Below are positions 12,128-44,847 of a stretch of DNA of 44,962 nucleotides, in pieces. The position numbers were made by a program, and so were the translations under genes. Under the pieces are notes generated by a model. It did not search any database, was not told the origin of the DNA, and saw nothing but the letters and a program-made list of their open reading frames with translations. The stretch spans positions 1-44,962 of the forward strand of contig CAJOFH010000020.1 in the NCBI GenBank assembly GCA_905233845.1, read 5' to 3'. The stretch comes from an uncultured Muribaculaceae bacterium (GTDB taxonomy: Bacteria > Bacteroidota > Bacteroidia > Bacteroidales > Muribaculaceae). Within the stretch, counting starts at the first letter, position 1; the number at the start of each line of letters is the position of its first letter.

Positions 12128-13456
12128 ATGAGAACAACAATTCACATATATTTTTATAGAGCTCTGCTCTTGTCAGTGCTGATGGTCACGATTGCAATGC
12201 CCGCTACGGCCTATGACTTTATGGCAGATTCTATTGCTTACAGCTTCAATAATAACGACTCTACCACCGTGAGCGTAGTGCCCATTTCCAAGACGGAATA
12301 CTATAAAGGAGACATCGTCATTCCTGAAACCGTCATTTACAATGGTAGCAGTTTAACTGTCACTGCTATAGGCAAAGCTGCTTTCGCCTTCTGCTCCGAG
12401 ATGACTTCTATCTCGTTGCCAAATTCTATCACAGCTATTTCTTTCTGTGCTTTTATGAACTGCTATGAGTTAACCGAGATAACACTGCCTAATCAACTTA
12501 AGCTCTTGGACGACTGCGCATTTGTCAGTTGCACGGGATTGAAGTCTATCAAGATTCCCGATTCGGTAGAACTGATTGGCTATCTTGCTTTTAATGAGAA
12601 TCACAGTTTAGAAACCGTAGTCTTGCCCAACTCATTGGAGGTAATAGATGAGATGACATTTGCAAATTGCTGGAATCTGAAAAACATCAATTTCCCCGAG
12701 TCTTTGAAATATATTAAATATGAGGCTTTCAGTGGATGCGATAAATTGACTGACATCAACATACCCGACTCTGTTGTTGAGGTTAGCAGTAGGGCCTTCG
12801 CTGGTTGTTCTAAAGTCAAAGAGTTGCGTGTTGGTGAATCGGTGAAGCGCATCGCCAATAGCGCATTTATAGATTGCAAATGGATGGAAGTGCTGAAATG
12901 GGATGCTGCTGAATGTGATGATTTTGATGATATTGACGCTCCGTTCTGCTTATTGTTTGGAAAAAACTTCTCGATTGTTATTGGCAACAATGTCAAAAGA
13001 ATCCCTGCCAACTTGTGCCGTTACTCCATCAATTTGAAAAGTGTAGATATTCCTGCTTCGGTCAATGAAATAGGAAAACAGGCTTTTGATACTTGTTTTC
13101 ATCTTAAGACTATTGTCTCAAGAATTCATGCTCCAAGTATGGTTAATTATGGCACTGACATCGAAAGCATATTCAATGGAGTAGATAAAGACTCTTGTGT
13201 GGTCTTTGTGCCAGCAGGAACTATCGAAGCGTATAAGGCAACTATGCCCTGGAGTGAGTTTAACCACTTTGAGGAAATTGTTGAGAATGACATTAATTGC
13301 GACATGGCAGTCACCAGTGCCGACGTAACGATGCTCTACAACCAAATACTAAACAACGATTACTCATCCCCAAGCACCTGCGATGTCAATGGTGACGGAG
13401 TAGTCAACGCCGCCGACATCACAGCCATATACAACACTCTCTTAGGAAACCAATAA
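12128..13456 (+). CDS. BspA-like LRR protein with dockerin-like EF-hand pair (paralogue 1)
   Basis: A 442-residue protein with a signal peptide (about 1-28), a short conserved head (YDFMADSIAYSF), BspA/LRR_5 repeats from about 60 to 370, and a C-terminal pair of calcium-loop repeats (about 388-442). The second loop, DVNGDGVVNAADIT, has the Dx[DN]xDG pattern of dockerin type I. The first (DINCDMAVTSADVT) is degenerate. It is the first of three tandem paralogues with 13-nt and overlapping junctions. No cohesin partner is visible, so the repeat may act in folding or anchoring. The T9SS tail of the gene at 216 is missing here. Confidence 0.85.
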   Translation: MRTTIHIYFYRALLLSVLMVTIAMPATAYDFMADSIAYSFNNNDSTTVSVVPISKTEYYKGDIVIPETVIYNGSSLTVTAIGKAAFAFCSEMTSISLPNSITAISFCAFMNCYELTEITLPNQLKLLDDCAFVSCTGLKSIKIPDSVELIGYLAFNENHSLETVVLPNSLEVIDEMTFANCWNLKNINFPESLKYIKYEAFSGCDKLTDINIPDSVVEVSSRAFAGCSKVKELRVGESVKRIANSAFIDCKWMEVLKWDAAECDDFDDIDAPFCLLFGKNFSIVIGNNVKRIPANLCRYSINLKSVDIPASVNEIGKQAFDTCFHLKTIVSRIHAPSMVNYGTDIESIFNGVDKDSCVVFVPAGTIEAYKATMPWSEFNHFEEIVENDINCDMAVTSADVTMLYNQILNNDYSSPSTCDVNGDGVVNAADITAIYNTLLGNQ

Positions 13457-13469
13457 ATACCACAACATT

Positions 13470-15131
13470 ATGAAAACCATTATACTAAAACAGTCATTAC
13501 GAACACTGCTGCTAGCTATCATCGCAGCAATAGCCGTCCCTGCCAACGCTTATGACTTTATGGTCGATGGCATCGCCTACAATATCAACGAGGATGATAC
13601 TACTGTGAGCGTGACACTAAATGCGAATGAATACTCTTTCCCGACTTATAATGGCGACATTTTAATTCCAGAATCAGTCATCCACAATGGTCAAACCTAT
13701 GCAGTAACAGCAATTGGTGGTGACGCTTTTTATAACTGCATTAATCTATCTTCTGTAAGTCTGCCCAACTCGCTTTTACTGATTGGTGAGTATGCTTTTT
13801 CTTTTTGCAGCTCCATTACTTCTATTCACTTGCCAGCGTCAGTAAATTTGATTGTTGGGAATGCATTTGCTGGATGCGAGGCCTTGAACTCAATAACTGT
13901 TGATGAGGGAAATGAGAGATATGATTCTCGCAACAACTGCAACGCAATCATTGAAACAGAAACTAATACTTTAATCACAGGATGTTCTTCTACGGTTATC
14001 CCTAGCTCAGTAAGATCTATTGGCAAAGGGGCCTTTGCTTACTGTTCCAACCTTACCTCACTTTATATTCCCAACTTAGTTACGAATATTTCAAATGATG
14101 CATTTGAAAGATGTACTAGCTTGACATCAATTTATTCAAGAGTCTTGTTTCCTGCATCAATTAGTTGTTCTAACAATGCTTTCTATGGAGTTAACATGTC
14201 GGCGTGCACTCTATATATTCCTCAAGGCACTCTTAGCGACTATCAGGAGTTGAGTCCATGGAAATTCTTTTCCAATATTGTCGAACTCAAAACAGGCGAT
14301 ATCAACCAAGATGGTGATGTGACTGCAGCCGATGTCACTGAACTTTACAATTATCTTCTCGTTAATGATAACAACAATCAAATTTCTGGCGACGTTAATG
14401 GCGATGGAGAAGTGACAGCTGCCGACATCACCACTGTCTATAACATTCTTCTTGATGGTAACAGCGGGTTGAGTCGCCCTATTCTTACTCTTGCAGGAGA
14501 AAAGACGATGTTGGTTAACATAGGGAATTCTTTTGAGGAACCAGGATATAGTGCTGAGATAAATGGTGAGGATATTACAAGTAACGTGGTTGTCACAAGC
14601 AATGTTGACACAAGCAAACCAGGCTATTATACTGTGACCTACTCGGTCACAACTCTAGACGGGCTTAAAGTCACTAAGATTCGCAATGTGTGGGTCAACA
14701 ATCCTGGGCACTTCAACACCATCTACTGGGGTGAGTCGTGGCACAACACTAATCCACTAAGCCATTACTACAATTCGCCGCTTGTGATTGAGGAAAACGA
14801 TGCAAGTCAGGGACTCTACACCATTAATGATGTGCTGGGAGGTTTTTACTGTTATGGCAAATATCCTCAGTACACTTCTTACGACTTCTTTGTCGAGGCA
14901 CTCTTGAAACTTGAAGGCACTAGCGTTACCATGCTTGAAGAGGGTGATTGGTACTTCATTGACATCGATGACCCTTTAGTGATGCTTGATGGTTGCTGGA
15001 ATCCAGAAACTGGTGTTGTCACCTATCGCATGAATTACTATGCAAGTGGTGGCGTAGTGCTAACACCTATTAATGAGACCAATCTCTCCAGTATAATATA
15101 TGACAACAATAACAACCTACAACCACAATGA
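13470..15131 (+). CDS. BspA-like LRR protein with dockerin-like pair and Ig-like tail (paralogue 2)
   Basis: A 553-residue protein: signal peptide 1-27, head YDFMVDGIAYNI, LRR_5 repeats from about 60 to 270, dockerin-like EF-hand pair at 276-330 with both loops intact (DINQDGDVTAADVT and DVNGDGEVTAADIT), an Ig-like DUF5011-type domain at about 336-410, then a C-terminal domain (411-553) that looks like the tails of Bacteroidota surface glycan-binding proteins. The dockerin-like pair is internal here but terminal in its two neighbours, so this copy has gained the last 220 residues or the others have lost them. The start is 13 nt after paralogue 1. Confidence 0.85.
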   Translation: MKTIILKQSLRTLLLAIIAAIAVPANAYDFMVDGIAYNINEDDTTVSVTLNANEYSFPTYNGDILIPESVIHNGQTYAVTAIGGDAFYNCINLSSVSLPNSLLLIGEYAFSFCSSITSIHLPASVNLIVGNAFAGCEALNSITVDEGNERYDSRNNCNAIIETETNTLITGCSSTVIPSSVRSIGKGAFAYCSNLTSLYIPNLVTNISNDAFERCTSLTSIYSRVLFPASISCSNNAFYGVNMSACTLYIPQGTLSDYQELSPWKFFSNIVELKTGDINQDGDVTAADVTELYNYLLVNDNNNQISGDVNGDGEVTAADITTVYNILLDGNSGLSRPILTLAGEKTMLVNIGNSFEEPGYSAEINGEDITSNVVVTSNVDTSKPGYYTVTYSVTTLDGLKVTKIRNVWVNNPGHFNTIYWGESWHNTNPLSHYYNSPLVIEENDASQGLYTINDVLGGFYCYGKYPQYTSYDFFVEALLKLEGTSVTMLEEGDWYFIDIDDPLVMLDGCWNPETGVVTYRMNYYASGGVVLTPINETNLSSIIYDNNNNLQPQ

Positions 15132-16464
15132 CGTGAAAATCAATAAACTATATTTAGCATCACGGACACTACTATTACTACTATCGCTCATCGTTGTTGC
15201 CTTTACAGCCAGTGCCTTCGACTTTATGGTCGATAGCATTGCATATAATATCAATAGCGATGGCACCAGCGTGAGAGTGACTCAAAACGTACAATATTAC
15301 CCAACCTATAGTGGTGAAATTGTAATTCCTGCATCAATTGACTATAATGGCAAAAACTATGCTGTGACAGCAATTGAAGAGAGGGCGTTCGATGCATGTC
15401 GGGAATTAATATCTATAAACCTACCAAATTCACTTGAACAAATTGGTCGTTCATCTTTTTCACGTTGTAGTGGCCTAACTGAAATAACAATACCAAACTC
15501 GGTCCATAACATTTATAGTAGTGCATTTGAGTGTTGCACAAGTTTGGAGTCAATAGTGCTTCCTGATTCGTTGACCGATTTGAATAACTATGTGTTTATG
15601 TCTTGCTCTAGTTTGAGCTCTATAAAGTTGCCTGAACAGCTGAAGCACATTTATATGTGTGCATTTGATGGTTGTTCCAGTTTAACTGAGATTGTGATTC
15701 CTGATTCTGTTGAAGGTATTTATAGTTATGCTTTTCGTGATTGCAGTAATTTGGAAAAAATCACGATAAATGAATCTTTGAAATATATATCACGAGATGC
15801 CTTCACTTCTTCTTGTAAAAAACTAAAAAACGTGATTTGGAACGTTGTCGAATGTGAAGAGTTCAGTGATACAGATGACAATCCTTTTTATCTTGTGAAC
15901 TTCTCCAACAACTGCATCACCAATTTTGAGTTTGGCGAAAAAGTTATAATAATACCGAATTATATTTGCCGACAGTTCAGAGGTCTGAAATCTATTAAGA
16001 TTCCTAATTCTGCCACAACGATTGGTGAAGAGGCGTTTGCTGTATGTACTGGCCTGACATCAATCACTATTCCCAACTCGGTAAATACTATTAATGACTA
16101 TGCATTCGCAGGATGTGAAAACTTGACATCAATATTCTCAAGAATTAATGAACTCAAATCAACCACTTGCAATGTTAACGCATTCAATCAAGTTGACATG
16201 TCGACTTGCAAACTATATGTGCCTAAGGGCACTCTAAGCGACTACCAGAACAATGCGCCATGGAGCGAGTTTTTGACTATTATCGAACTTGATCCAGGCG
16301 ATGTCAACCTTGATGGTATTGTTTCTGCTACTGATGTGACAACCCTTTACAACATCCTTTTAGACAATGAAGAAGTGTTGACTGAGACTGCCGATGTTGA
16401 TGGCGACGGCGTTATTCTCGCTGCCGACATAACTGTCATATACAATATATTGCTCGGAAATTGA
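15100..16464 (+). CDS. BspA-like LRR protein with dockerin-like EF-hand pair (paralogue 3)
   Basis: A 454-residue protein if started at the ATG at 15100, which overlaps paralogue 2 by 32 nt. An in-frame GTG at 15133, 1 nt after that stop, gives an N terminus (VKINKLYLASRTLL) that aligns better with its two paralogues and leaves a compact signal peptide, so it may be the true start. The head FDFMVDSIAYNI, LRR_5 repeats (about 60-380) and terminal dockerin-like pair (about 400-454, second loop DVDGDGVILAADIT) follow the same plan. A bidirectional terminator lies just downstream. Confidence 0.83.
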   Translation: MTTITTYNHNDVKINKLYLASRTLLLLLSLIVVAFTASAFDFMVDSIAYNINSDGTSVRVTQNVQYYPTYSGEIVIPASIDYNGKNYAVTAIEERAFDACRELISINLPNSLEQIGRSSFSRCSGLTEITIPNSVHNIYSSAFECCTSLESIVLPDSLTDLNNYVFMSCSSLSSIKLPEQLKHIYMCAFDGCSSLTEIVIPDSVEGIYSYAFRDCSNLEKITINESLKYISRDAFTSSCKKLKNVIWNVVECEEFSDTDDNPFYLVNFSNNCITNFEFGEKVIIIPNYICRQFRGLKSIKIPNSATTIGEEAFAVCTGLTSITIPNSVNTINDYAFAGCENLTSIFSRINELKSTTCNVNAFNQVDMSTCKLYVPKGTLSDYQNNAPWSEFLTIIELDPGDVNLDGIVSATDVTTLYNILLDNEEVLTETADVDGDGVILAADITVIYNILLGN

Positions 16465-39493: not shown

Positions 39494-40260
39494 AATTAAA
39501 TAAATTTATGAGTTTTCAGTAATCAGTTTTCTTTAAGACTCCAAAGATAGTAAAAAAATATCAAACAACAAAATTCAGGGAAATTCAGGCGAGAGGGAAG
39601 AGGAAAGAGGTGAGAGTGAGGCTGCGCGTGGTAGTGCGTTAGAGACTGGTTATTTTGACAGGAGTTACAATATTTTTCATGGTTTGGGACAGTTTTTGAA
39701 AAAAAACTTGAACACTGCGCCTGCGGTGCAATACATTGACAACTCCCAGGAGCCTGTGGGACACTTTTTGAAAAAAAATTCTTGATGGTTTTGGAGTTTT
39801 TGACCAGAAAAATGGGGGTTTTTGGTAAAAAACGGAAGTGGTGTGGGACACTTTTCGAAAAAAAATTTTGAGCACCGCACTGACTTAGTCTCACGCAAAT
39901 ATCGCAAAATTGATTAAACAACTGGAACAACTTGTATACAACTTGAACAACAAATGTGGGTTGTGTGGGACAATTTTGAAAAATTTTTTTCAAGCTCGCA
40001 AGCTCGGTTATTTTTTTGTGTTTCATAAGTGGTATATTATAATATCAAGGTACGTGTATGCGCGCAAAAGTAATAGCGGTGGGGAAGAGGGAGCAATGTT
40101 ATTTTATTTGTTAAGGAAAGAGGAGAGAGGGATTCAATGCACAATGCATAATTCACAATGCATAATTGCTTTGCTTGAAATTGAAAGAATTAAGGAATAT
40201 TTGGTGCCTTGGGCAGGATTTTAGCCTTTGAGGGGTGTTATTTTGCAGCAAAAATCTTTT
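39494..40260. other. Gene-free repeat-rich stretch next to the defence island
   Basis: About 770 nt with no supportable gene. It holds a purine-rich tract (39591-39620), four GTGGGACA-TTTTT-GAAAAAAA units (39683-39990), another purine-rich run (40081-40130) and an ATGCACAAT/ATTCACAAT array (40138-40166). A minus-strand open frame over the units reads repeated FFSKSVP and is not a credible protein. Confidence 0.75.
39683..39990. repeat. Four degenerate GGGACA-TTTTnGAAAAAAA units
   Basis: Units with GGGAC starting at 39686, 39758, 39845 and 39967 share about 22 nt. Spacing is irregular (72, 87 and 122 nt) and the intervening sequences are unrelated and AT-rich. Confidence 0.8.
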
Positions 40261-40271
40261 AGGAATAAACC

Positions 40272-40336
40272 TGTAGACAATTGTCCGTTGACTTTTTGAG
40301 AATTGTAGACAGTAGTCCGTTGTGCAGTTGTCTACA
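40272..40336. promoter_or_regulatory. Operator array for the controller-type regulator
   Basis: Two direct copies of TGTAGACAnTnGTCCGTTG (40272-40290 and 40304-40322) and one inverted TTGTCTACA (40328-40336). The second copy covers the -33 TTG and the inverted one lies between -33 and -7. I infer that the HTH protein encoded just downstream binds here. Confidence 0.68.
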
Positions 40337-40350
40337 GAGGGGTAACTTTG
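40320..40350 (+). promoter_or_regulatory. Bacteroidota-type promoter of the defence operon
   Basis: TTG at 40320-40322, 20 nt spacer, TAACTTTG at 40343-40350. The start point should fall near 40356, giving a leader of only about 13 nt to the ATG at 40369. Confidence 0.8.
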
Positions 40351-40368: not shown

Positions 40369-40575
40369 ATGAACATTAACGAAAGATTTGGCAAACGAAT
40401 CAAGGAAAAAAGGAAGGCTATGGGTCTGTCACAGGAGAAATTAGCCAACCTCGCAGAGGTCGACAGAACCTATCTTCCAGAAGTAGAGAGAGGAGAGAGA
40501 AATATATCACTAGTCGTAGCTGAAAAGATAGCAAACGCACTAGGAGAGAAACTATCTAAGATGATTGAAGATTGA
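40369..40575 (+). CDS. Controller-type Cro/CI HTH regulator of the restriction-modification operon
   Basis: A 68-residue DNA-binding protein. The frame is open from a TTG at 40348, but that codon lies inside the -7 promoter box, so the ATG at 40369 is the start. The HTH (about 15-50) has LSQEKLANLAEVDRTYLPEVE followed by RGERNISL, the hallmark of restriction-modification C proteins, which are small dimers that delay endonuclease expression and control their own promoter. Direct and inverted TGTAGACA copies over the promoter fit autoregulation. The methyltransferase start follows 10 nt after the stop. Unlike many C proteins it would control the whole operon. Confidence 0.88.
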   Translation: MNINERFGKRIKEKRKAMGLSQEKLANLAEVDRTYLPEVERGERNISLVVAEKIANALGEKLSKMIED

Positions 40576-40585
40576 CAACCTTGTA

Positions 40586-41806
40586 ATGAAGAAAGAACAG
40601 AAATATAAAGAGCCTCTCGACAATCCTGTTGTCGAGGATGAAACTGTTGCATATCAAAGAAGTCTATTTACACCTATAATTACGGGGTATAAGCATTTCG
40701 ATGAAAAAAAGAATGAAAAACAAATTAATATTATCTCTCTTTTCTCTGGCTGCGGTGGATTAGATTTGGGATTTGAACAAGTTGGAAATTATAAAACAAT
40801 TTGGGCAAATGATTTTAAGCCTGAAGCCTGTGAAACCTTTCGCAATCATTTCGGCAACATCATTTTAGAAGGTGATATAGAACAAGTTGATCCATATACT
40901 GACAAGTCAATTCCTGAATGTGATTTAATTTTAGGTGGGTTTCCTTGCCAAGATTTTTCTATTATATGGAAAAGACCAGGTCTAAATGGAGAAAGAGGGA
41001 ATTTGTATAAGAGTTTTTTACGTTTTGTTGATGCTAAAAAACCAAAAGCTTTTGTTGCAGAAAATGTTAAAGGAATCTTAACTGCAAATAAGAAGAAAGC
41101 AATAAAACAAATTATTGAAGACTTTCAAAACATTGAACCTGGCTATGTTGTCATACCACATTTATATAATTTTGCCGAATACGGAGTACCCGAATTTAGA
41201 GAACGTGTTCTAATTGTTGGTATTCGCTCAGATTTGGGATTTGATTTTAAACATCCAAAACCTACTCATGGCACAAAAGATGGATTACTACCTTATGTCA
41301 CTGTAGGTGAAGCTTTCAAAGGTGTGGAAGAAGTTGAACATAACAATGAACACTTACGTGTTACTGACCGCACAAAAAAAATAATAAGTTTAATACCTGA
41401 AGGCGGAAATTTCACGGCCATCCCCAAAGATAGTCCTTATTACGTTAAAGGCATGATTAGTCACGTATATCGTCGAGTACATTTAGGAGAACCATCAAAA
41501 ACAATTATTGCTGCTGGTGGTGGTGGAACTTGGGGGTATCACTACCCTGAGAATCGCCCTTTAACCAATAGAGAAAGAGCAAGAATTCAATCATTCCCAG
41601 ATGATTTTGTTTTCTATGGTAGCACAACTGAAGTGAGAAGACAGATTGGCAATGCTGTTCCACCCGTTGGCGTTCATGCAATTGCAGAAGCATTAAAGCC
41701 ACTTTTTTTAGGCAAATATGAAAAGGTGGACTTAAAAGAACGTCTTGAAGAGTACAAACTCATGCCTTTTGAACAAAGATACAAATTAATAACTCAACAA
41801 CTATAA
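40586..41806 (+). CDS. DNA (cytosine-5-)-methyltransferase
   Basis: A 406-residue modification enzyme. The frame reaches back to a TTG at 40565 that overlaps the regulator gene; the ATG at 40586 is preferred. The order of motifs is normal: I (ISLFSGCGGLDLGFE), IV with catalytic cysteine C121 (GGFPCQDFS), VI (AENVKGI), VIII (FRERVLIVGIR), a target-recognition region, then IX (RERARIQSFPDDF) and X (QIGNAVPP). It protects host DNA against the nuclease encoded 2 nt downstream. About 45 residues precede motif I. The target site is unknown; if it pairs with an NgoFVII-type enzyme, a GC-rich 5-bp site is possible. The gene is AT-rich compared with the chromosome to its left. Confidence 0.92.
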   Translation: MKKEQKYKEPLDNPVVEDETVAYQRSLFTPIITGYKHFDEKKNEKQINIISLFSGCGGLDLGFEQVGNYKTIWANDFKPEACETFRNHFGNIILEGDIEQVDPYTDKSIPECDLILGGFPCQDFSIIWKRPGLNGERGNLYKSFLRFVDAKKPKAFVAENVKGILTANKKKAIKQIIEDFQNIEPGYVVIPHLYNFAEYGVPEFRERVLIVGIRSDLGFDFKHPKPTHGTKDGLLPYVTVGEAFKGVEEVEHNNEHLRVTDRTKKIISLIPEGGNFTAIPKDSPYYVKGMISHVYRRVHLGEPSKTIIAAGGGGTWGYHYPENRPLTNRERARIQSFPDDFVFYGSTTEVRRQIGNAVPPVGVHAIAEALKPLFLGKYEKVDLKERLEEYKLMPFEQRYKLITQQL

Positions 41807-41808
41807 TT

Positions 41809-42861
41809 ATGGAAATTCTTCTAACAAATAACCCCATTATTTCATCAATAGGTTGTAAGGCGGTCAAGGATTACTTCACAAACTTTGTAAATGAAGCGGA
41901 TGCGATGAACATTGCTACTGGATTCATCTCAAATCAATCTCTTGCTACAATAAGAACTGCGGTTGAAAGCAGAGAACATAATCTTAAAGTTAATATGTTT
42001 GTTGGCATGCATTCAATACAGGGGTTTACTCAACTTCAATACAACTCTTTAAAAGTGTTACATACTTTTTTAAATGAAACAGATTGTGGCAACGTTTACC
42101 TTTCTCCTAGAGCATTATACCATGGTAAAATGTATTCATTCGTTAAAGATGGTTCTTGTTTTGGTGCTTTTATAGGTTCATCTAACCTTGAAAGCTTTGT
42201 TTCAGATTGCCCTAATTATATTGAAAGTGATGTTTTGCTCCATGATAATGATGCCATATCAATCGACACTCATATAAAAAAAATTATCGATTTATTAGGA
42301 GTTAATTTTGATGACTTAGAAGCGCCTCATGAATTCATCAAACCTGATGAGGAAATTTTTGTAGATTATAAAGGCGTTAGAAAGGTCTCTGAAGAAGAAC
42401 TTCATCGTGCTTGTGCGCTTGTCGAGGGAAATCCAATAAGAATTCCCCTTAAAACATTCCCAAAAAGTAATTTAAACACTTATTTTGGTGCTGGTAAGAT
42501 TAAAGGTAGATTTAGTCGACGTGACTGGTATGAAGTTGAAATTATTTTAAGCTCTAAAGAACCTTCTTTTGCAAATATCCCATACGATCCTGATCCTGCA
42601 AAAAATGAATTATGTCACATACAAGTTATCACTGATGACGGATATAATTTTGAAATGTTTAGGCAAGGTGATTATGGAAAAAATTTCCGTTCTGCCAAAG
42701 ATTTGAGGATTCTAGGACGCTGGATTAAACGACATATGGAAATTTCAGGTTCTTTAGTTGTTGGGCAACCAATAACTAAAGACGTTCTTGATGCTTTTGG
42801 AAAGCATTATTTAGTTTTACAAAAGACATTTGACAACTACTGGCTTCTTAAATTAGAATAA
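41809..42861 (+). CDS. NgoFVII/BfiI-like restriction endonuclease (phospholipase D fold)
   Basis: A 350-residue protein whose N-terminal half is a single PLD domain: YHGKMYSF gives H105 and K107 of the HxK motif, D114 follows, and GSSNLES at 123-129 gives the second part. Enzymes with one such motif (BfiI) dimerise and cut DNA without metal ions through a histidine intermediate. The C-terminal half (about 195-350), with GRFSRRDWYEVEIILS and IQVITDDGYNFEMFRQGDYGKN, fits the B3-like DNA-recognition domain of this group. I recognise it as the RE_NgoFVII family. It starts 2 nt after the methyltransferase and ends 1 nt before the Z1 gene. Confidence 0.85.
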   Translation: MEILLTNNPIISSIGCKAVKDYFTNFVNEADAMNIATGFISNQSLATIRTAVESREHNLKVNMFVGMHSIQGFTQLQYNSLKVLHTFLNETDCGNVYLSPRALYHGKMYSFVKDGSCFGAFIGSSNLESFVSDCPNYIESDVLLHDNDAISIDTHIKKIIDLLGVNFDDLEAPHEFIKPDEEIFVDYKGVRKVSEEELHRACALVEGNPIRIPLKTFPKSNLNTYFGAGKIKGRFSRRDWYEVEIILSSKEPSFANIPYDPDPAKNELCHIQVITDDGYNFEMFRQGDYGKNFRSAKDLRILGRWIKRHMEISGSLVVGQPITKDVLDAFGKHYLVLQKTFDNYWLLKLE

Positions 42862-42862
42862 T

Positions 42863-44764
42863 ATGTCATATTTCTCATCTTATCTCAAAACTCTTCCTTA
42901 TAGTGATTTAAGGGAAAATGTTACAAAAACCTCAGAACAAGTTCTGAAAAACATAAATAACACTTTTAATTTTCATGACCAAGTAACAGGATTGTTGCTT
43001 GGCAATGTTCAAAGTGGAAAAACTGGACAAATGCTTGGTATTATCAGTAAATTGGCAGATAATGGATATAAATTATTCTTACTACTAACTACCGATATTA
43101 CCGATTTACAACGTCAAACGTTTTTGAGGGTCAAAGAATCTCTCTCTGGTTTTAACGTATTTTCTGAGAGAGATGAAGTTGAATTTACCTCTAATCCTTT
43201 TGATAAACCTACTGTTATTGTTTTAAAAAAGAATTCGCGTATACTTAAAAAATGGCGCAATCTACTTGTAAATTCAAACTCTTGTAGAGGTCTATCGTTG
43301 GTTATTTTTGATGATGAGGGAGATGCTGCAAGTTTGAACACATTGATTAATCGTCACAAAGTGAGCACAATAAATAGTAGACTTAATGAAATCAAACAAA
43401 CAGCCAATGCTGGAACTATTTATATAGAAGTCACAGCTACACCTCAAGCTATTATTCTTCAGTCTTCATTCTCCGATTGGCGTCCTTCCTTCATTAACTA
43501 TTTCAAACCCGGCAAAGGTTATCTTGGAGGAAATTTCTTTTATTCAAACCCCGATTCATATACTATTAAGTTTACGGGAGAAAATGAATTAACAGATGTT
43601 TTAGCAGATGATGATAACGTATGCCCTACAGGTCTTCAAATGAGTATTATGTCGTTCTTGATTAATTGTGCTCATAAACGATTAAACGGTGAGACAAATT
43701 GTAATTTTATGATTCACCCAAGCTCTAGGATTAATGCTCATGAGAAATTTGTTCTACGGGTTCAAGAGCATCTTAACCTACTTCTTAATTCTGAAGGAGA
43801 AGAAGATTTTGATAATCTTTTGTATGAAACATGGCGTGATTTACAATCATCAAAGCCAGATCTTGAGCATTTTGAAGATATAAAAGCTGCAGTTAGCGAA
43901 ATTTTATCAAATGGCGAGATAAGACCAATACCTCTTAATTCTCGCAGTTTCATTTGCAGAGATAGTAATAATCCAGATGCTTTAGATTTATCAAAGGGGT
44001 ATAATGTTGTAGTTGGAGGCAATACTCTTGGGCGTGGTATTACTTTCCCACATTTACAGACCGTTTATTATTGCCGAACTTCTAAAAAACCACAAGCTGA
44101 CACGTTCTGGCAGCATTCTCGAATTTTTGGTTATGATAGAGAACGAGAATTGATTCGGATTTTCATTCCACAAACATTACACCGTCTTTTTGTCAACCTC
44201 AATGAAGCAAATAATATCATAATAAAACAAATTGAGAACGGATTAGATAATATTCAAATTATTTACCCTAAAAACATAAAGCCTACTCGTAGAAATGTTC
44301 TAAATAATGAAACATTAAATCTCATTCAAGGTGGTGTTAACATGTTTCCCATCCAACCAATTGAAGACAATACAACAGAATTGGACCCACTTTTATTGAA
44401 TTATTCAAATGAAAAATCAGTGATAGTAGATAAGGATTTTGCTGTAAATCTGTTATATTATTGTGGTAGTAACAATATAGATGATTTTCCCAACCAGAAG
44501 TTTATATCATCTATAGAAGCACTAGCAAATAAACGTCCTTCAATTAAATGCCGTCTCATCGTAAGAGCCAATAGAAACTTGTCGAGAGGAACAGGTACGT
44601 TACTCTCTGAGAATGATCGCATCTTAGGCTCTCACTTTAACGATGAAATAGTGATTACTATTTATAGAGTAAATGGCAATATAGAACAAGGGTGGAATGG
44701 TAGTCCTCTTTGGATACCAAATATTAAATTTCCAAGTGATTGCTGTTTCTATGACTCAGAATAA
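42863..44764 (+). CDS. Z1-domain superfamily-2-type ATPase
   Basis: A 633-residue protein. It keeps a helicase-like motor: Walker A GNVQSGKT (46-53), Walker B IFDDEGD (148-154), a TATP motif III (191-194), motif V GNTLGRGITFP (386-396) and motif VI QHSRIFGYDRE (417-427) with an arginine finger. This last region is the core of the Z1 domain (PF10593), which occurs beside DNA methyltransferases and MutL-like ATPases in defence islands. Residues about 450-633 are of unknown fold. It is the last gene of the operon, 1 nt after the nuclease. It may load, translocate or regulate the PLD nuclease, or form a second effector; neither is shown. Confidence 0.87.
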   Translation: MSYFSSYLKTLPYSDLRENVTKTSEQVLKNINNTFNFHDQVTGLLLGNVQSGKTGQMLGIISKLADNGYKLFLLLTTDITDLQRQTFLRVKESLSGFNVFSERDEVEFTSNPFDKPTVIVLKKNSRILKKWRNLLVNSNSCRGLSLVIFDDEGDAASLNTLINRHKVSTINSRLNEIKQTANAGTIYIEVTATPQAIILQSSFSDWRPSFINYFKPGKGYLGGNFFYSNPDSYTIKFTGENELTDVLADDDNVCPTGLQMSIMSFLINCAHKRLNGETNCNFMIHPSSRINAHEKFVLRVQEHLNLLLNSEGEEDFDNLLYETWRDLQSSKPDLEHFEDIKAAVSEILSNGEIRPIPLNSRSFICRDSNNPDALDLSKGYNVVVGGNTLGRGITFPHLQTVYYCRTSKKPQADTFWQHSRIFGYDRERELIRIFIPQTLHRLFVNLNEANNIIIKQIENGLDNIQIIYPKNIKPTRRNVLNNETLNLIQGGVNMFPIQPIEDNTTELDPLLLNYSNEKSVIVDKDFAVNLLYYCGSNNIDDFPNQKFISSIEALANKRPSIKCRLIVRANRNLSRGTGTLLSENDRILGSHFNDEIVITIYRVNGNIEQGWNGSPLWIPNIKFPSDCCFYDSE

Positions 44765-44819: not shown

Positions 44820-44847
44820 TACCAGGGCGCTTTGCCCTGGTATTTTT
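44820..44847 (+). terminator. Terminator of the defence operon
   Basis: A perfect 9-bp stem, TACCAGGGC (44820-44828) with GCCCTGGTA (44834-44842), loop GCTTT, followed by five T at 44843-44847. Confidence 0.9.

Follow-up and report, generated by a model that had tools for sequence, protein, structure and literature searches.

A probable CglI/NgoAVII-class restriction-modification operon with an added controller gene in an uncultured Muribaculaceae bacterium

A predicted ATP-dependent restriction-modification operon

Contig CAJOFH010000020.1 (GCA_905233845.1; genome labelled G000) of an uncultured Muribaculaceae bacterium, analysed here as a stretch of 44,962 nucleotides (nt) termed the window, carries a four-gene operon that very probably represents an ATP-dependent restriction-modification (RM) system of the CglI/NgoAVII class with an added controller protein, its activity being predicted from homologues. 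All on the forward strand, the genes encode C, a 68-residue XRE-type controller protein (40369..40575; HTH_3, 1.7e-13); M, a 406-residue C5-cytosine DNA methyltransferase (40586..41806; PF00145, 1.7e-74); R, a 350-residue PLD nuclease with a C-terminal B3-like DNA-binding domain (41809..42861; PF09565, PF20731); and H, a Z1-family motor with a DEAD domain (42863..44764; PF10593, 2.1e-26), followed by an intrinsic terminator-like hairpin with a T tail (44820..44842). The class assignment is drawn from the domain-by-domain match of R to R.NgoAVII and of H to the CglI H-subunit domain, from the M-R-H gene order, and from invariant catalytic and Walker residues: the 5-methylcytosine (5mC) methyltransferase gene adjoins R and H, R combines an HxK PLD domain with a B3-like C-terminal domain, the single-strand order is that of the homologues, and a small XRE controller gene lies 5′ of the RM genes, as in controller-regulated systems.

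The original prediction had described a four-gene operon of C protein, 5mC methyltransferase, PLD nuclease and Z1 protein, an observation confirmed by domain and profile matches; its interpretation is partly supported, but its view that the nuclease–Z1 pairing had no described mechanism did not hold, as the CglI/NgoAVII homologues already have one. A new mechanism for the pairing was rejected, as was membership of the MZA system, for which the MzaC score (80.1 bits) lay far below the curated cut-off of 1500 bits. The less usual parts are the putative controller gene in front and the possible joint exchange of nuclease and motor domain, both modest additions to what is described for the homologues.

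Matches and conserved residues of nuclease, motor and methyltransferase

Residues 16-348 of R align to the solved structure of R.NgoAVII (4RCT, E-value 4e-57), with the fragment 4RD5 also matched, and R matches the PADLOC Type II restriction enzyme model (4.9e-73). H matches the PADLOC Type II helicase model (Helicase_II, 1.1e-209), and its residues 474-629 match the CglI H-subunit domain 6F1S (8e-16; named CglIIR protein by its depositors). Relatives were collected by fetching loci with H, and a minimum length was set for the aligned rows: besides the window, 50 of 52 R rows passed at 300 residues, 51 of 55 H rows at 550 residues and 48 of 50 M rows at 300 residues. Invariant positions include H105, K107, S124 and N126 of R (51/51 rows), Q50-T54, D150-E152, D154, R391, R420 and R426 of H (52/52), and P120, C121 and E159-V161 of M (49/49), with P194 of H kept in 50/52. 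Identity to the homologues in L054, a Neisseria gonorrhoeae record other than FA1090, is 66% for M, 36% for R and 45% for H, the value for M being the same in its target recognition domain-like part, while the B3 domain is 41% identical; going by homologues, the recognition site may be GCSGC-like. His105 of R aligns with residue 104 of the L054 protein, counted from the first Met, and histidine 104 is the number mutated in R.NgoAVII (PMC4267653).

Linkage was counted over 56 H-fetched loci, of which 52 contain R and 50 contain M, contig edges accounting for four of the six M misses and one of the four R misses; the M-R-H set was found together in many phyla. L001 and the genome G097 were rejected as independent cases, L001 lying wholly inside L071, a stretch of G097; L058 and L073 come from that same genome, and all of these were taken as a single case.

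These matches bear on whether R is instead a BfiI-like, ATP-independent nuclease with no need for H. BfiI, called ATP-independent in PMC4267653, has the same PLD-B3 architecture as R, and the original prediction had likewise held that NgoFVII/BfiI-type HxK nucleases cut without nucleoside triphosphate; R is, however, a clear homologue of R.NgoAVII, cleavage by which needs N/H, and BfiI was missing from the solved-structure matches of R at E-values up to 1. The joint occurrence of M, R and H across phyla, although from an H-led search, and the finding that one divergent block against L001 (below) takes in both the nuclease and the DEAD half of H, as expected of interacting parts, also make an ATP-independent R highly improbable.

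It is similarly very hard to credit that these genes are the leftovers of an RM system, degraded or silent, at the end of a contig. R is rare in the group (2/397 genomes of the family, counting the present one) and low guanine–cytosine content suggests recent arrival of the operon, but all four frames are open, all catalytic residues checked are intact, and the putative operator block is conserved with L001.

Comparison with known systems and proposed mechanism

NgoAVII of N. gonorrhoeae FA1090 shares the gene set and order of the three RM genes (M-R-N), differing in that no controller-like gene was detected in L054 with a profile of four C sequences; CglI of Corynebacterium glutamicum comprises the same three components and is reported to be ATP-dependent, with translocation proposed, but sits in prophage CGP3, and the sections consulted mention no controller gene for it. 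BceSIV of Bacillus cereus, which is likened here by description, is reported to combine a PLD nuclease with an ATPase and to require ATP or GTP, recognising GCWGC (PMC4267653). The R proteins of homologues are stated, with a citation to unpublished work, not to cleave cognate DNA alone, the N/H ATPase being needed; this ATPase turns over ~170 ATP/s per monomer, CglI forms an R2N2 complex, and cuts are made at fixed positions by GCCGC; translocation and collision are proposed (PMC4267653, PMC5737866). In vivo, wild-type C. glutamicum plates phage CL31 at 1.7e-6 relative to a prophage-free strain, and the corresponding figure for the strain lacking the cglI genes is 0.63 (PMC8002715).

By analogy, M would methylate a GCSGC-like site on host DNA, and R dimers with one shared PLD active site would bind it, when unmethylated, via B3 and associate with H dimers via the DEAD domains; ATP hydrolysis would then move the R2H2 complex along DNA until it collided with a second, site-bound complex, leading to cleavage of both strands about 6-7 nt away from the site. 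The R2H2 complex, ATP-driven translocation and collision cut are carried over from CglI/NgoAVII, where they are reported or proposed. The suggestion of ATP-driven gating or translocation in the original prediction is to this extent consistent with the ATPase-dependent nucleases known from that class.

Within the genus, 13 NgoFVII-like matches were found in 12 genomes. Ten of the 11 outside M-R-H sets were scanned (L067 was left out), and in 8/10, some frames being cut, a PLD nuclease is joined to a superfamily 2 (SF2) motor, a likeness to the R and H of the window; such fused PLD-SF2 helicase nucleases are of the SauUSI-like kind.

A putative controller gene and its operator

C matches the PADLOC Control_protein family (1.9e-20; next family capH, 3.6e-14), and its best matches include C.BclI (3.5e-13) and C.AhdI (2e-12). 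An XRE controller gene with upstream repeats recalls the Type II RM systems of C.AhdI, C.BclI and C.Esp1396I, from which the present operon is set apart by a nuclease of the ATP-dependent class. Its layout is also different: C and R of the C.Esp1396I system form an operon convergent with M, whereas here all the genes share a strand, with C ahead of M and R.

Upstream of C, a putative C-protein operator region (40269..40337) was delineated by direct and inverted repeats and by conservation with L001. Repeat scanning identified two copies of TGTAGACAnnnGTCCGTTG, a direct repeat of 19 nt, spaced 32 nt apart (40272-40290 and 40304-40322), together with an inverted repeat with 8-nt arms, TGTAGACA and TGTCTACA (40304-40311 / 40329-40336), all on the forward strand. 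On the same strand, TAACTTTG (40343..40350) is a putative Bacteroidota -7 box; it is kept as TAATTTTG in L001, and a TTG at 40320-40322, inside the putative operator, is a possible -33 element. Across 40304-40350, 45/47 nt are the same upstream of C in L001 (local alignment score 44.5; none of 200 single-base shuffles scored above 15), and a 20-nt core of this block has a single match in the genome when up to three mismatches are allowed. The count of TANNTTTG was not by itself above chance, a sigma-70 promoter scan was no better than shuffles, and hairpin folding of the putative operator gave a z of -1.66, equalled by 13/200 shuffles. C is predicted to bind the repeats that precede it and to regulate a single C-M-R-H transcript, most likely as an autoregulator setting expression of the whole operon, since M would be transcribed together with R.

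Of the 50 M-bearing relatives, all except L032 and L036 offer 600 nt or more of sequence ahead of M, leaving 48, among them L056, whose M is inverted. A C-like gene directly precedes M in three of the 48, L001, L019 (Ignavibacteria) and L039, as judged by the four-sequence profile, with which distant controllers may be missed. Other helix-turn-helix (HTH) matches lie further away or elsewhere; the closest same-strand example ahead of M is that of L022, at 658 nt upstream. This scarcity, and the 186 nt separating the HTH gene from the M frame in L039, would suit an unrelated neighbour with no control over the RM genes; such a reading is nonetheless improbable, given the similarity of C to C.BclI, C.AhdI and PADLOC control proteins, its spacing of 10 nt from M, and the repeat and promoter block kept with L001. 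On a tree of 51 of the 52 H rows (at least 590 residues), the C label needs three changes, the minimum forced by well-supported branches; a single change was given by 0% of 200 bootstrap trees, and 38/500 label shuffles scored as low. Gain and loss of C are not distinguishable on this tree, and, among the papers listed by searches of a limited literature collection, no report was found that links a controller to CglI-type systems. In L039, a perfect 13-nt inverted repeat with a 9-nt gap (L039:3380-3414) stands shortly 5′ of the C-like gene and may be an operator of a different type from the one proposed in the window.

Several points weigh against the reading of the operon as a CglI/NgoAVII-class system with a controller. 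The activity of this locus is a prediction from sequence, and the M-R-H linkage is partly a product of the search, because loci were fetched with H. With R only 36% identical to its N. gonorrhoeae homologue, the recognised site could differ, as does the GCWGC reported for BceSIV. The repeat copy at 40272-40290 is absent in L001, so the putative operator architecture is only half conserved, and C may act as activator, repressor or both.

Divergence of the nuclease and motor domain

Relative to L001, the operon contains a divergent block (41875..43470, forward strand) that takes in R except for its first ~22 codons, together with the first ~140-200 codons of H. DNA identity per 100 nt is 56-73% between 41869 and 43468, compared with 74-91% on the upstream side (40769 to 41868) and 77-92% downstream, starting at 43469, and a change-point scan gave a log-likelihood ratio (LLR) of 83.3 for R23-H141. 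The scan covered 14 pairs chosen from 29 (window-L001 and 28 others), with 30 shuffles on one pair, and the other 13 pairs gave lower values (at most 48.9) over other segments.

Nuclease R and the motor domain of H may have been exchanged together by recombination. In a tree comparison of 17 chosen rows, the path between the window and L001 has a length of 0.85 for the block but 0.086 for its flanks (1.5 and 0.60 to L003); over H1-120 the identity of the window to L001 (63%) is on a par with that to L002 (62%), whereas over H241-460 it is 93% for L001, with the next relative at 70%. Fast diversifying selection, for instance by phage inhibitors, is a serious contender, if somewhat short of an even prospect: the window and L001 still group together inside the block (100/99), and lower conservation of R than of M is also seen elsewhere, as in the pairs L053/L017 and L017/L021. 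Fourfold-site identity is low across most of the operon (35-59%; 69% over H201-460), so synonymous rates do not decide between selection and recombination. Joint exchange would agree with L009/L010, in which a 100%-identical tract (R275-H245, LLR 18.0) is consistent with a separate exchange at the same place; this tract over the DEAD domain looks like recent recombination. In the same pair, synonymous sites over H1-200 are near-identical, the operons being otherwise 94% identical.

Other features of the window

Just 5′ of the operon, four imperfect copies of an interspersed repeat with the core TGTGGGACAMTTTTNGAAAAA occupy 39680-39990. Exact matches to TGTGGGACAMTTTTNGAAAAA in G000 number 33 (13 forward, 20 reverse; reversed control 0), and the core GTGGGACACTTTTTGAAAAA has 29 copies in the window genome and none in the 100 other genus genomes searched. 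Many copies lie 65-98 nt apart in the loci looked at, several having a hairpin-like GCACCGCGCCTGCGGTGC after them or a TTGACAACTCCCAGGA-like module before them. Elsewhere in the window (12128-16464), three adjacent genes encode predicted secreted proteins of 442, 553 and 454 residues, the translations of which, judged by eye, feature repeated leucine-rich-like units and dockerin-like ends.
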